From IMG/VR virus record IMGVR_UViG_3300037827_000415, positions 18,867 to 82,866 of that record: DNA of 64,000 nucleotides, one strand, 5' to 3'. Numbering within the stretch: position 1 is the stretch's first letter; the number at the start of each line of letters is the position of its first letter. The notes below the pieces were generated by a model, which saw nothing but the letters and a program-made list of their open reading frames with translations, had not been told where the DNA came from and searched no databases. The stretch is from a virus. Position numbers and translations under genes: made by a program. This document shows positions 18,480-62,622 of the stretch, piece by piece.

Positions 18480-18971
18480 ATGTCAAAACTTTTTTCGACG
18501 ATTTGCGTTCTCTTTTTCGTCATGTCGACGCAAGCCTTTGCCGGCAGTGGGCATCAGGAAACTTCGTTCACGTTGCCCGTCAACGAGAGGCGAGTCTGCC
18601 AGTGGATTGAAGAGCACGCCGACGCAATCACGAAAGCGACCGGGGCCGAAATCGTGCGGAAAAAAGGCGACCGGGCACATTTGATCGTCCGCGACGATGA
18701 CGGCCGAACGTTCGATTTCGTCGTGAGCCGCGAGAAGAATGCGGCAGGGAACCAATTCGACGAAGAGTTAACCAAGGTTGTGAGCGGGCAACTGACGGCT
18801 CAGGCGACGCACGTTGGCGTGGACGCGGTTCCCAACGGTTGCATGGTTCATGTCCGCATGTCGGCCGAAGTGGAAGGCGTCTCTGGGCCGAAACTGGCGG
18901 TCGGGCTCAGGCGGAAGGTGCGGGCGATTCGGGCGATGATTGAGGGGGCGTTCGGGAAGTCGGACCGTTAG
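18480..18971 (+). CDS. Exported protein of unknown function, lone plus-strand gene
   Basis: 163 aa. Cleavable signal peptide (hydrophobic 5-18, likely cut after AFA), then a mixed alpha/beta domain with two Cys. GAGGCGGG precedes the ATG. It is the only plus-strand protein gene of phage origin in the early region and overlaps the converging DUF551-like gene by 65 bp. Lone, oppositely oriented genes like this often act outside the lytic programme ('morons'). No family recognised. Confidence 0.65.
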   Translation: MSKLFSTICVLFFVMSTQAFAGSGHQETSFTLPVNERRVCQWIEEHADAITKATGAEIVRKKGDRAHLIVRDDDGRTFDFVVSREKNAAGNQFDEELTKVVSGQLTAQATHVGVDAVPNGCMVHVRMSAEVEGVSGPKLAVGLRRKVRAIRAMIEGAFGKSDR

Positions 18972-20332: not shown

Positions 20333-20370
20333 GAAAGAAAAACTGCGGCCAAAATTGTCCCTGACCGCAG
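20333..20370 (-). terminator. Intrinsic terminator behind the tRNA-like genes
   Basis: Minus strand: CTGCGG/CCGCAG stem with a 16-nt loop, then TTTTTCTTTC. It lies 43 bp after the tRNA-like gene at 20413, so those RNAs appear to form a separate short transcript. Confidence 0.7.
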
Positions 20371-20412
20371 GTCGCGGCACGTCCAACAAGGATGCCCGCT
20401 TTCCCGAGATTC

Positions 20413-20515
20413 GTCACCGGCGGGGATCGAACCCGCATCACACGGTTGAGTTTGCACCCGGTTTCCCGGAGGTTTCTCCATGGCCGTGCATCCTACCAGT
20501 TAGACGAAAGTGACG
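20413..20515 (-). tRNA. tRNA-like gene, Glu-type body with 38-nt anticodon loop
   Basis: 103 nt. 5' GTCACTT TC GTCT and AGGA resemble the acceptor and D arm of tRNA-Glu, with discriminator G. The T arm GCGGG-TTCGATC-CCCGC is perfect. The acceptor pairs for 6 of 7 positions. The anticodon stem CACGG/CCGTG encloses 38 nt instead of 7, holding two mini-hairpins (GGAG/CTCC and CCGG-GAAA-CCGG). No normal 5-bp/7-nt anticodon arm could be found, so the anticodon is unassigned. It may be a decoy, a degenerate tRNA or a specialised RNA. Confidence 0.55.
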
Positions 20516-20577: not shown

Positions 20578-20669
20578 AGTTTCCGGCTGGAGTCGAACCA
20601 GCACCTCACTCAATGACCACCGGATTCTCACCCGGATCGGCGTGCGTGCACCACTGGCACTACGGAAAC
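20578..20669 (-). tRNA. tRNA-like gene with enlarged anticodon loop and T73
   Basis: 92 nt. Acceptor GTTTCCG/CGGAAAC (7 bp), D stem GTGC/GCAC with loop CAGTGGT, T arm GCTGG-TTCGACT-CCAGC, all perfect. The middle 43 nt do not form a standard anticodon arm; the best stem, CGCCG/CGGTG (one G-U), has a 15-nt loop. Discriminator T is rare. It stands 62 bp upstream of the first tRNA-like gene on the same strand. Two well-kept tRNA bodies with odd anticodon arms side by side argue against chance. Confidence 0.55.
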
Positions 20670-22338: not shown

Positions 22339-22533
22339 TCAAACAACCGGACTCGCTTCCGGCTGAGATGGGTCGCTCTGTAGCTCTTCGCGAATCACGC
22401 TGATTGATCGGTCGGCGTCGATGCCCAGTCGGCAGTTGTTGGGACCGATTCGCACAACTGCGACCTTGATAATTGGATAGCCAGGAACTTTAATCAGGAT
22501 CGCTTCGTCTTTCTTTCTCGAAAGCACCAACAT
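22339..22533 (-). CDS. csrA: CsrA, global translational regulator
   Basis: 64 aa from ATG at 22533. MLVLSRKKDEAILI, the KVAVVRIGPNNCRLGIDAD core and SVIREEL match CsrA/RsmA along nearly the full length; residues of the RNA-binding strands are present (L4-R6, R44-type region before EE). CsrA binds A(N)GGA in mRNA leaders and usually blocks translation. The csrA leader itself has AAAGGAT at the Shine-Dalgarno position. A phage copy may act on host carbon-storage or motility genes, or time phage translation. Confidence 0.9.
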   Translation of the reverse strand: MLVLSRKKDEAILIKVPGYPIIKVAVVRIGPNNCRLGIDADRSISVIREELQSDPSQPEASPVV

Positions 22534-22574
22534 TGTGAATCCTTTCATGCCCGCATGTCGTTTCGCTCTGCCCC

Positions 22575-22604
22575 TGTTTAGCATTTCACCGGGCATCGGG
22601 TCAA
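22575..22604 (-). promoter_or_regulatory. Promoter TTGACC-18-TAAACA before csrA
   Basis: Minus strand TTGACC (22599-22604), 18-bp spacer, TAAACA (22575-22580), about 40 bp upstream of the csrA ATG. Same spacer as the other phage promoters; csrA probably has its own transcript start. Confidence 0.55.
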
Positions 22605-59691: not shown

Positions 59692-62622
59692 TCACCATCC
59701 CCTCACGCTCGGCAACCCATTCATCCCCGCCCCGAACCCAGTCCCCCGCAGCGGCATGCCCTGCAACTGCAAGCCGGGGATCGCGTCGGTCACAACCTCA
59801 GTCGAGCCCTGCCGCTGCATGTTGTGCTCGCTGGTCACATAATGCACGGCCATCGACACGCAGTCAACAAAATCATCTTTTTTGCTGTCGTCGATGCCGT
59901 CGAATTCGAGCAACTGTCGCACGAGCGGGCCAAGCCAGCCCGGATTCCCGTGCGGGAACCAGACTTGCCCCGACTCGAATCGCTTGCGGGCCACGTTCGC
60001 ACGAGCCAGCTTGTCGCGGTCGCCCGGATCGTACGGAATGATCGTCATGCCATCGGCCCCGGACACGCGGGCCTCTTGGACGATCGAAATGCCGCTCGAC
60101 TTGAATTCGATCATCGCGAAGTCGCAGACGGCCGGGCGAACATTGAAGTCCGCGGCACGCTCGCGGTCCCACGAGCCGAAGTACAGTTCCTTGATCTTCT
60201 CCATGATGTTCGGCGTCTCGACCTTTTGCATCCAGCCGTGACGCAAGATCAGGTCGTACGTGCTCAGGCTCATGGTCCAGATTGTGATGCACGTGTAATC
60301 GCTCCACGACTTGGCCGTGTAAGCCGTGTCGGCCGTCATAAACGTGAGCGTCTCGCCGTTGTCGATGAAGCGGTTGTGAATGTACGGGCGGTTGGGGCTG
60401 TCGCCTCCGATCGATTCGGCGTCCAGTGGATCGCGGAGCAAGAACGAATTGCCGCGGCGAATCCAGGGACGCAGCCACTCGCGGCGGAAGACTTTTCCCT
60501 CGCGGACCACGTCCCAGTCGCCGTCTTCGAGTTGCTTGCGTTCGATCGCCGGCACGTCGGCCATCGAGCGGCGATACTCGGCTTCGTCAATGAACGGATT
60601 ATCCTGCATTCGTGCGGGCAGGAAATAACGCACGGCTTCGCCGACTCCGTCGCAATAAACGCACGCCTTCTTATGAAGGATTCCGGTCCCGCCGCAATCG
60701 CCGCACTCGGATCGTTTCTCCCAAAGTCGAATGTCTTTGAACCGTTCATCTTGACTGGCCCGCAGATATTCGTCCGTAACGTAACGGGCCTTCACCCATT
60801 CGCCGCCGTCATGCGGGCCGCCTGGATTGGTGCCGGCTCTCGCACGTGGAGGCACGTCCGAGCCGGCGTTGCGGCGAAGACGCGAGAACAGGTAGCGGAA
60901 CTGATGCTCGCGTTGGTGTGTGACTTCATCGACTCCCAGAAAGTCGTATTCGAGAGATTGGTACTGAATCTCGTCGCCTTCGTCCTCCATGTAGCCGAAC
61001 GTGAGATAGGCGTCTCCGCCTTTGTTGCGAAACACCCACGACGATTCTTGGGCCGACCAGCGGATATGCGGATAGAGCGGAGCGAACCAGCGGCGAGCCC
61101 GCGTCATCAGCGAATTGGCACCCTTGGACAATTCCTTGAACGTCCGCCGGATCAGCAACGCGGAATAGCCGGGCACGTCAGCGTACTGAATCGCAGCGGC
61201 GAGGAGGTAGGTCGAATTGTGAGTCGGCAGGAACGATCGTCCGCAGAGAAAAAGCCTATCGGAGGAATTCACGACAAGGCACTTCATCGGTCGGCAATGA
61301 ATGCGTTTCGCGTCCAGCAAATAACGGAATTTCACCACTCGCCTTTGGACAGGCAGTTGCCGACGAAGTTTTCTCTGCAACCGGAACACGGGCATCGTCG
61401 GGGTAAACGAGACGCTCCAATATGGGCCGCAATCCTTTCCATAAAGTTTGGCCCGTTTTTCTCGAATGGTCGGCTTCATGCCTAGGCTAGCAGCAAGCGT
61501 TAACGCGGATTCTGCTAGCTGTTTCTTCGTCGAGCAGAACTGCACCTTCCCAGATTTCCCGCATGTGCCGTCCGTATCCAGAAGGCCCTGTAGTAACGCG
61601 AGCCTTTGCTCTTTGCTAGCCCACAGATAGCGATGCGGCACGTGTTTATTACGGAGCACGCTAAGTCGCCGAAGTTTCGCTCTGAGTCCTCCGCGAAAAT
61701 AAAAAGTGCGGGCCTTTCCGGCTTTTCCTTTCTTGCTGATCGACCCGATTACGAATCCCGCTTCGATGAATGCTTCCGCGATCGAAACGTCCATCGTGGT
61801 CATGCTGGGCGAATCGGAATGGCCATCGCCGAGCCAGCATCCCAATAGATATGGATCAAGCGGCAATCGCTTGGGCGGAAGTTCGACCGAATCGCAGACT
61901 GGGATCGCATGACTCGTGCGGCCGCGCACTTTGATCGTCGCCACAATCTCGGCTGTAGTTCGCACGGTCCCTGTCGGCGGCGGAGAAGTGGGCGGACGCA
62001 GAACGGTTTGGTTTCTCGCGGTCAACGACGCCGTGAACAATTCGCTCTTGTTGCCGGTCACGCGAGATTTTCGCGTTTTTCTTCGGGCTGCTCGCCATTC
62101 ATCGTCTCGCCGCGTGAGCGATGCCATTTCATGAATGTCGAACGTCAACCAGCGATGATCGTCGCTGCAAATCGCTGTCGATCCGTCATCGAAGATGAGT
62201 TTCCATCCGTCGCGGAATTCGATGTCAGATTCGGCGATCACATCACAGGGCTTGCCGTCGCGACCAATCACCTGCGATCCGGGCAGAACGTCGATCAGTT
62301 TTTTGAATCCGGTAGGCGTTGGGATTTGCGTGGACAGGTCGAGCGCTTTTCCTCCAGCGGCTCCGCCTCCATATAGCACGTCGCGTTGCGTGAGCGAGAG
62401 AAAGAACTTTCCCTTCGGGCTCACTTGCGGCAGGCACGCATCCAGATACCGATTAGTCCGATATCCACGACCGAGGCTCGCCAGATACCACTTCGCCGAG
62501 TCGAGCTGCTCCGGCGACCACGACTCGGACGCTTTGCCCATCTGGGCTTGGATGTCCGGGGCGAGCGTCAGCCAGCCCTTGGCGACTGCTTGCTCAGTGC
62601 TGAGGATGATCGCTTGCGTCAT
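59692..62622 (-). CDS. terL: Terminase large subunit with in-frame intein
   Basis: 976 aa as translated, 599 after removal of the intein (residues 93-469). The Walker A motif GGGAAGGK-STYLL is rebuilt by splicing. Walker B is LGVDEVTH (about 563-569). The nuclease domain has TADTAYTAKSW (acidic motif I) and DDFVD near the end (motif III). A Cys4 zinc finger (CGDCGGTGILHKKACVYCDG, about 640-659), not part of standard TerL, lies between ATPase and nuclease. TerL packages DNA by ATP hydrolysis and cuts the concatemer. Confidence 0.93.
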   Translation of the reverse strand: MTQAIILSTEQAVAKGWLTLAPDIQAQMGKASESWSPEQLDSAKWYLASLGRGYRTNRYLDACLPQVSPKGKFFLSLTQRDVLYGGGAAGGKALDLSTQIPTPTGFKKLIDVLPGSQVIGRDGKPCDVIAESDIEFRDGWKLIFDDGSTAICSDDHRWLTFDIHEMASLTRRDDEWRAARRKTRKSRVTGNKSELFTASLTARNQTVLRPPTSPPPTGTVRTTAEIVATIKVRGRTSHAIPVCDSVELPPKRLPLDPYLLGCWLGDGHSDSPSMTTMDVSIAEAFIEAGFVIGSISKKGKAGKARTFYFRGGLRAKLRRLSVLRNKHVPHRYLWASKEQRLALLQGLLDTDGTCGKSGKVQFCSTKKQLAESALTLAASLGMKPTIREKRAKLYGKDCGPYWSVSFTPTMPVFRLQRKLRRQLPVQRRVVKFRYLLDAKRIHCRPMKCLVVNSSDRLFLCGRSFLPTHNSTYLLAAAIQYADVPGYSALLIRRTFKELSKGANSLMTRARRWFAPLYPHIRWSAQESSWVFRNKGGDAYLTFGYMEDEGDEIQYQSLEYDFLGVDEVTHQREHQFRYLFSRLRRNAGSDVPPRARAGTNPGGPHDGGEWVKARYVTDEYLRASQDERFKDIRLWEKRSECGDCGGTGILHKKACVYCDGVGEAVRYFLPARMQDNPFIDEAEYRRSMADVPAIERKQLEDGDWDVVREGKVFRREWLRPWIRRGNSFLLRDPLDAESIGGDSPNRPYIHNRFIDNGETLTFMTADTAYTAKSWSDYTCITIWTMSLSTYDLILRHGWMQKVETPNIMEKIKELYFGSWDRERAADFNVRPAVCDFAMIEFKSSGISIVQEARVSGADGMTIIPYDPGDRDKLARANVARKRFESGQVWFPHGNPGWLGPLVRQLLEFDGIDDSKKDDFVDCVSMAVHYVTSEHNMQRQGSTEVVTDAIPGLQLQGMPLRGTGFGAGMNGLPSVRGW
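61216..62346 (-). other. Class 3-type intein with LAGLIDADG endonuclease, in TerL Walker A
   Basis: 377 residues from Ala93 to Asn469. Block A ALDLSTQIPTPTGF; block B with H156 and W158 (DDH-RW); block F with C448 (KCLVV); block G PT467HN469, then Ser470. W/C/T in these places is the class 3 signature. Endonuclease motifs LLGCWLGDG and LLQGLLDTDG. The insertion lies between Lys and Ser of the P-loop, the most common TerL intein site. Confidence 0.9.

Follow-up and report, generated by a model that had tools for sequence, protein, structure and literature searches.

A 64,000-nt stretch of a viral genome (IMG/VR record IMGVR_UViG_3300037827_000415, positions 18,867 to 82,866; hereafter the window) carries on its minus strand, from 20514 to 20412, a phage gene derived from tRNA-Glu(CUC). 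In this gene 31 nt are inserted just 5' of the anticodon, and both the tRNA body and the anticodon stem are intact. The reading we favor, at a probability of about 0.42, is that the element serves as a non-decoding tRNA mimic (sponge), kept for its body.

A tRNA-Glu body with an enlarged anticodon loop

The preliminary description of this stretch had recognized a tRNA-like gene with a Glu-like acceptor, a D arm, G73 and an intact T arm. We recovered all of these, on the minus strand. From 5' to 3' the element reads GTCACTT-TC-GTCTAACTGGTAGGAT-G-CACGG-[38 nt]-CCGTG-TGAT-GCGGG-TTCGATC-CCCGC-CGGTGAC-G. The acceptor strands GTCACTT and CGGTGAC form six of seven pairs (T7-C66 is a mismatch), the D arm is GTCT/GGAT, the V loop is TGAT, and G73 is present. 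No CCA is encoded at the 3' end. The core bases U8, A14, G18G19 and T54-A58 are all in position, so that the acceptor, D and T arms with their conserved bases are those of a canonical tRNA. A 7-nt anticodon loop with U33 is missing. Instead, the loop has exactly 38 nt, CCATGGAGAAACCTCCGGGAAACCGGGTGCAAACTCAA, the length given in the preliminary description.

A descriptor of the tRNA body matched exactly three places in the 64-kb window, versus 0.02 per window in composition-matched Markov-random sequence. Standard ARAGORN gave zero tRNA calls on the window, the element included. The Rfam tRNA model (RF00005) reported only the gene at 13040-13139, the element falling below the family gathering score. 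The folding energy of the whole element was ordinary (z -0.76), and the case for it therefore rests on its tRNA features. Its sequence was 100% identical in a contig of another sample, 3300028021, arguing against an assembly error. Fragments of tRNA genes at integration sites are already known (PMC9897764), but a prophage attachment site was ruled out here, the body being complete with both ends and lying within a phage genome that has terminal repeats. An identity as tmRNA was also rejected, Rfam giving no tmRNA match in the window.

With respect to charging, the body determinants of glutamyl-tRNA synthetase (GluRS) listed in PMC9976931 (G1-C72, U2-A71, U11-A24, U13-G22:A46 and no nt 47) are all present. 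The anticodon part of Glu identity, U34 U35 C36 A37 in a normal loop, is not: the element has C34 U35 C36 A37, inside the 38-nt loop. Compared with a canonical phage tRNA-Glu, it thus shares the acceptor, D arm, anticodon stem, T arm, G73, the GluRS body determinants and CUC at 34-36, and differs in loop size, in having no U33 beside the anticodon and in being missed by both tRNA finders.

When the insert was excised in silico, ARAGORN called a tRNA-Glu(CTC); with the insert kept, there was no call. The loop after excision would carry C33 instead of U33. The two mini-hairpins proposed earlier for the loop stood in part. The lowest-energy anticodon arm does have two hairpins, one of the CC.UGGAG-AAAC-CUCC.GG type and the other GGGU-GCAA-ACUC, but the obvious pair of 4-bp hairpins, GGAG/CTCC and CCGG-GAAA-CCGG, have two bases in common and are mutually exclusive. 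One extended hairpin with a GAAA cap comes within ~0.8 kcal/mol of the lowest-energy arm. Half of the insert, AACCTCCGGGAAACCGGG, resembles the 3' flank AATCT-CGGGAAAGCGGG, which starts 1 nt past G73 (15/18, p 0.012, best of four comparisons), a likeness that may weakly hint at the origin of the insert.

A group I intron was rejected, as the preliminary description had reasoned from size: 31 nt stand against a catalytic core of ~200 nt or more, and Rfam gave no intron match. No bulge-helix-bulge was found at the splice sites in the lowest-energy or suboptimal folds of the element.

Expanded anticodon arms in other viruses and in cells

We searched for relatives with a pattern of Glu-type D and T arms separated by an oversized gap, keeping only matches whose acceptor and T stems were paired; in a looser first scan, chance matches had dominated until this filter was applied. 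The search gave 42 distinct viral bodies of Glu type in which the anticodon-arm region is expanded, the window element included, a few of which have a long variable arm and a normal anticodon loop instead. At strict offsets, an anticodon stem with all five pairs was found in 13 of the 42, among them the window element, versus a mean of 0.23 (maximum 3) in shuffled sequences. A Glu or Gln triplet was in anticodon position in only three elements of the viral set, equal to the chance expectation, indicating that most viral members are not interrupted decoders. An AGUA...GAA motif, picked after looking, was found in nine of the 42 expanded arms (2.1 expected; L110, L254, L269, L272, L274, L093, L116, L068 and L253). 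It corresponds to both strands of the loop-E/sarcin-ricin motif.

Eight homologues from Bacteroidota phages (L031, L116, L070, L038, L267, L271, L269 and L274), several of them from Bacteroidota proviruses, aligned well with each other. All five anticodon-stem pairs had changed on both sides with pairing kept, and the covariation score of the stem was 0.447, versus 0.171 in shuffled alignments (0/500) and 0.065-0.113 when the stem was slid. At the expected position, none of the eight had an anticodon. This shows that the expanded arms of this family are under structural selection, which suggests a role outside translation, and it argues against decay for the Bacteroidota-phage class, not for the window copy. 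Covarying homologues, for which the preliminary description had called, were thus found for the class, but no equivalent locus was found beyond this phage species.

A covariance model of the eight homologues (R1), built with no window sequence, ranked the element first and the second tRNA body of the window second when scanned against the 64 kb (Table 1). The element has what defines this class, a Glu-type body, a 5-bp anticodon stem (5/5) and an expanded loop. Since the body supplies most of the R1 score, the match shows shared architecture, not common descent. Differences from the Bacteroidota-phage RNAs are that these belong to other phages, lack an anticodon in place and mostly have A73, whereas the window element is larger and G + C-richer and has kept its CUC.

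Three Bacteroidota tRNA-like RNAs (L149:1112-1240, L187:2238-2360 and L191:4059-4180) have an expanded loop that is the complement of a segment 6-8 nt beyond nt 73. This pairing changes in step in all three, for example GAGTAGGGAGT with ACTCCCTACTC, suggesting a possible loop-trailer pseudoknot or terminator. A pairing of this kind was looked for in the window element and not found. Two viral contigs that bear expanded-arm tRNA-like elements also gave Rfam matches to permuted tmRNA (L106:2544-2983 and L119:1326-1530). No blastn match was found in INPHARED for the three class members tried.

Other phage tRNAs carry inserts elsewhere. In jumbo phages, Lys- and Glu-type tRNAs (L044, L257 and L112) have 38-48-nt inserts between nt 28 and 29, with a common core AGAAA-hairpin-CAGCA/CGGCA. 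Read by hand, excision brings back the stems and the 7-nt loops, and one of these loops would read UCA, an opal suppressor; these inserts are possibly phage mini-introns. The similarity of their motif AGAAAC-hairpin-GCAGCA to AGAAACC..GCAAAC of the window element was seen by eye only, and we do not claim it. A mirrored search, with the D loop as the expanded part, found 25 distinct elements versus 31 with expanded anticodon arms, and most of the 25 had an intact anticodon loop. Among the D-loop hairpins are phage Glu tRNAs L282, L284, L292, L297, L301, L318 and others, mostly with intact anticodon loops. In L275, L278 and L279 the anticodon loops are also shortened, to 4-6 nt.

On cellular genomes, the same pattern matched many archaeal genes, as expected from known introns, and five Deltaproteobacterial Glu(CUC) genes (L133, L142, L158, L169 and L206). 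The archaeal bulge-helix-bulge introns share with the element a short insert in the anticodon region. They differ in that the element forms no bulge-helix-bulge in the folds examined, the phage has no EndA, and U33 would not be restored. The Deltaproteobacterial genes have a hairpin insert directly before C34 and loops of 37-43 nt. In four of the five, U33 is retained before the insert, and excision there restores U33-CUC. Like the window element they are Glu(CUC) genes with G73 and an insert immediately 5' of C34, but they lie on bacterial chromosomes, the insert is one long hairpin, and the sequence is unrelated. The L169 genome has, besides the interrupted copy, uninterrupted genes for Glu(UUC) and for Glu(CUC).

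The phage genome and its other tRNA bodies

The source record has 82,866 bp with a 127-bp direct terminal repeat, because of which the phage genome (82.7 kb) is most likely complete and circular. It encodes tailed-phage proteins: a DnaB-like helicase-primase, a RecE/YqaJ exonuclease, a major capsid protein, a large terminase with a LAGLIDADG insert, and CsrA. Contigs of the same phage were found in three further records with other sample numbers, one of which covers the element region. Queries with the capsid, helicase and RecE-like proteins matched only same-phage contigs or remote exonucleases.

Table 1 Coordinates of the tRNA-like element, its parts and the neighboring RNA features, in window positions.
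Feature	Position	Strand	Details
tRNA-Glu-like gene, 38-nt anticodon loop	20412..20514	-	G1 at 20514, G73 at 20412; R1 match 31.6 bits, E 3e-6
Anticodon stem, 5' side CACGG (nt 27-31)	20484..20488	-	5/5 pairs with 20441-20445, canonical offsets
Anticodon stem, 3' side CCGTG (nt 39-43)	20441..20445	-	5/5 pairs
T arm GCGGG-TTCGATC-CCCGC	20420..20436	-	Stem 5/5
31-nt insert ATGGAGAAACCTCCGGGAAACCGGGTGCAAA between nt 33 and nt 34	20451..20481	-	In silico excision + ARAGORN
CTC at 34-36 (Glu anticodon CUC), then A37 A38	20448..20450	-	Sequence
Second tRNA body with U73 (pairs: acceptor 7/7, D stem 4/4, T stem 5/5)	20578..20669	-	R1 28.1 bits, E 2.6e-5
Intrinsic-terminator-like hairpin + T tract	20333..20370	-	12 counted pairs + TTTTTCTTTC; ~42 nt downstream of G73
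Third tRNA gene, body of Leu type with A73 and a long variable arm, 7-nt loop CUUGGAA, anticodon UGG (Pro)	13040..13139	+	Rfam tRNA, 60 bits

The second tRNA body sits 63 nt upstream of the element's G1. With the cloverleaf arms enforced, its anticodon arm is an extended hairpin with a GAGA cap, and ARAGORN with introns allowed reads it as Arg(CCG) with an 8-nt intron. The only other call added in this mode was an unlikely Cys tRNA with a 979-nt intron. A possible pairing between the element and the second body (ACTCAA/TTGAGT) was dismissed as being at chance level by a rough hand estimate. Hairpins like the terminator-like one downstream of the element are expected 1.0 times in shuffled sequences, against the one found, so its role as a terminator is suggestive only.

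In the third tRNA the variable arm is unusually large. Charging with Leu would make this tRNA misread the Pro codons CCA/CCG, and among the phage genes counted CCG is frequent. An altered genetic code, with CCN read as Leu, is unlikely, the Pro of the DnaB-like ARPSHAKS motif being CCG. All three tRNA genes of the window thus have an altered anticodon region and an intact body. ARAGORN found no tRNA on the remaining 18.9 kb of the record.

The CsrA homologue (22339-22596, minus) lies on the same strand as the tRNA-like pair, ~1.7 kb upstream. We considered a CsrA sponge, from the phage CsrA and a GGA in the loop, and dropped it, nothing further supporting it. LAGLIDADG/Hint segments in the large terminase (59692-62622) and in a DNA methyltransferase gene (7377-9398, minus) are probable inteins, and an IS1595-type transposase is encoded at 13757-14752.

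A proposed tRNA mimic and its alternatives

As a mimic, the transcript would be processed like a tRNA, by RNase P, 3' trimming and CCA addition, steps that need only the acceptor/T domain. The RNA would fold into an L-shaped body with an anticodon arm ending in an irregular hairpin. It could not decode, yet it may occupy proteins that read the body, such as GluRS, EF-Tu, the CCA enzyme, RNase P or modification enzymes; host toxins that attack aminoacyl-tRNA or the acceptor end are other candidate targets. For the phage, such an RNA would serve as a tRNA-body sponge. The preliminary description had suggested bait for anticodon nucleases or for tRNA-handling enzymes, and of these the latter stay the leading type, the GluRS body determinants being kept and the decoding part lost.

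A comparable RNA is mascRNA, which is cut from MALAT1 and forms a cloverleaf lacking a conserved anticodon loop (PMC9976931). According to the same source it is processed by tRNA enzymes, as the element would be, has Glu identity determinants and is no decoder. It differs in being mammalian and has no common origin with the element.

We favor the mimic because tRNA bodies exceed chance in the window, the set of GluRS determinants is complete, and an identical copy occurs in another sample. The viral recurrence, the well-paired stems, the covariation in the eight homologues and the R1 ranking of both window elements support it further, as do anticodon-like triplets at chance level and the enrichment of AGUA...GAA. 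Several observations weigh on the other side. The copies of this region are identical and show no sequence variation. It keeps CUC-A-A in place, which a pure mimic does not need. It shows the class architecture, not a demonstrated homology. Any Glu-like body gains in R1 score, which therefore does not single out non-decoding RNAs, and AGUA...GAA, a feature of a subset of the class, is absent from the element's arm. The third tRNA has a normal-sized loop and would decode. Finally, D-loop expansions are about as common, suggesting that phage tRNA loops accept hairpins generally.

As the window copy has no homologues for a covariation test, two other origins were weighed beside the mimic: decay, which we consider unlikely although the strongest of the alternatives, and an insert that is excised, which is less probable again. 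If the locus is decaying, an insertion, for which the 3' flank was perhaps the template, broke a Glu gene, the other two genes are damaged as well, and none has a function. The anticodon-region defects in all three tRNAs with no canonical tRNA found in the window, the likeness of the insert to the flank, the ordinary folding energy and the failure to find a homologue beyond the species agree with this. Random decay should strike everywhere, though, and here the lesions are limited to the anticodon region, the acceptor, D and T arms being intact in all three genes. The phage genome is also dense and has retained the two bodies side by side along with a terminator-like hairpin, and compensatory changes hold the same architecture in the Bacteroidota-phage class.

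An intron-containing gene, from which a nuclease and a ligase would cut 31 nt to give a decoding tRNA-Glu(CUC), is improbable. The preliminary description had noted that bacteria lack the archaeal-type splicing machinery, and among the phage proteins we found no match to tRNA_int_endo or RtcB. That remark has to be set against the tRNA-Glu(CUC) predicted after excision, the Deltaproteobacterial inserts at the same place, four of which give back U33-CUC, and the jumbo-phage tRNAs restored by excision. However, excision leaves C33 in the window element, no bulge-helix-bulge appears in the folds, and the insert is too short for a group I intron. The Deltaproteobacterial genome checked has both uninterrupted Glu genes, so that its interrupted copy is spare, and in most viral members there is no anticodon that excision could bring back.

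Glutamate supply outside translation is a still more doubtful explanation. GluRS would charge the RNA via CUC and the body, and the glutamate would enter a non-ribosomal reaction, without decoding, much as an extra tRNA-Gly of Staphylococcus supplies cell-wall synthesis. The body determinants and CUC-A37 are retained, and Deltaproteobacteria carry interrupted Glu(CUC) genes as spare copies, but no enzyme using Glu-tRNA was recognized among the scanned phage proteins, and the second body, with U73, is not Glu-like.

Bait for host anticodon nucleases of the PrrC, RloC or VapC type is the least likely functional reading and is disfavored, because the 7-nt loop read by such enzymes is gone: CUC with A37 A38 is kept on the 3' side of the loop, but CUC is paired in the GGGU-GCAA-ACUC hairpin of the lowest-energy fold, and most viral relatives have no anticodon in place. 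The published pattern is also different, phage tRNAs having point changes in an otherwise normal anticodon loop (van den Berg et al. 2023, PMC10264068). These are likewise phage-borne with an altered anticodon loop, but decoding is proposed to be kept, whereas the loop of our element is enlarged five-fold.

Extending the mimic to other phages is a tentative step. Phages of several lineages may have a class of non-decoding RNAs with an intact Glu-type body, in which a variable arm, often of elaborate structure, has taken the place of the anticodon loop. Selection would keep these RNAs for capturing or steering an enzyme that handles tRNAs or a defence that targets them. The window phage would then have an adjacent pair of such RNAs that forms a single small RNA unit. 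We found no description of such a class in open-access papers, a scope outside which preprints and most subscription journals fall.

Phage tRNAs are usually explained by codon supply or by replacement of tRNAs cut by host defences. Tools of the ARAGORN type miss bodies without a working anticodon, and a structured RNA class may thus have escaped notice or been annotated as 'tRNA'. If the inserts are excised instead, there would be short tRNA introns in bacteria and phages, which would also be unexpected. If the mimic reading is true, phages would be exploiting the shape of tRNA as such, and the known counter-measures to tRNA-targeting defence would be widened.
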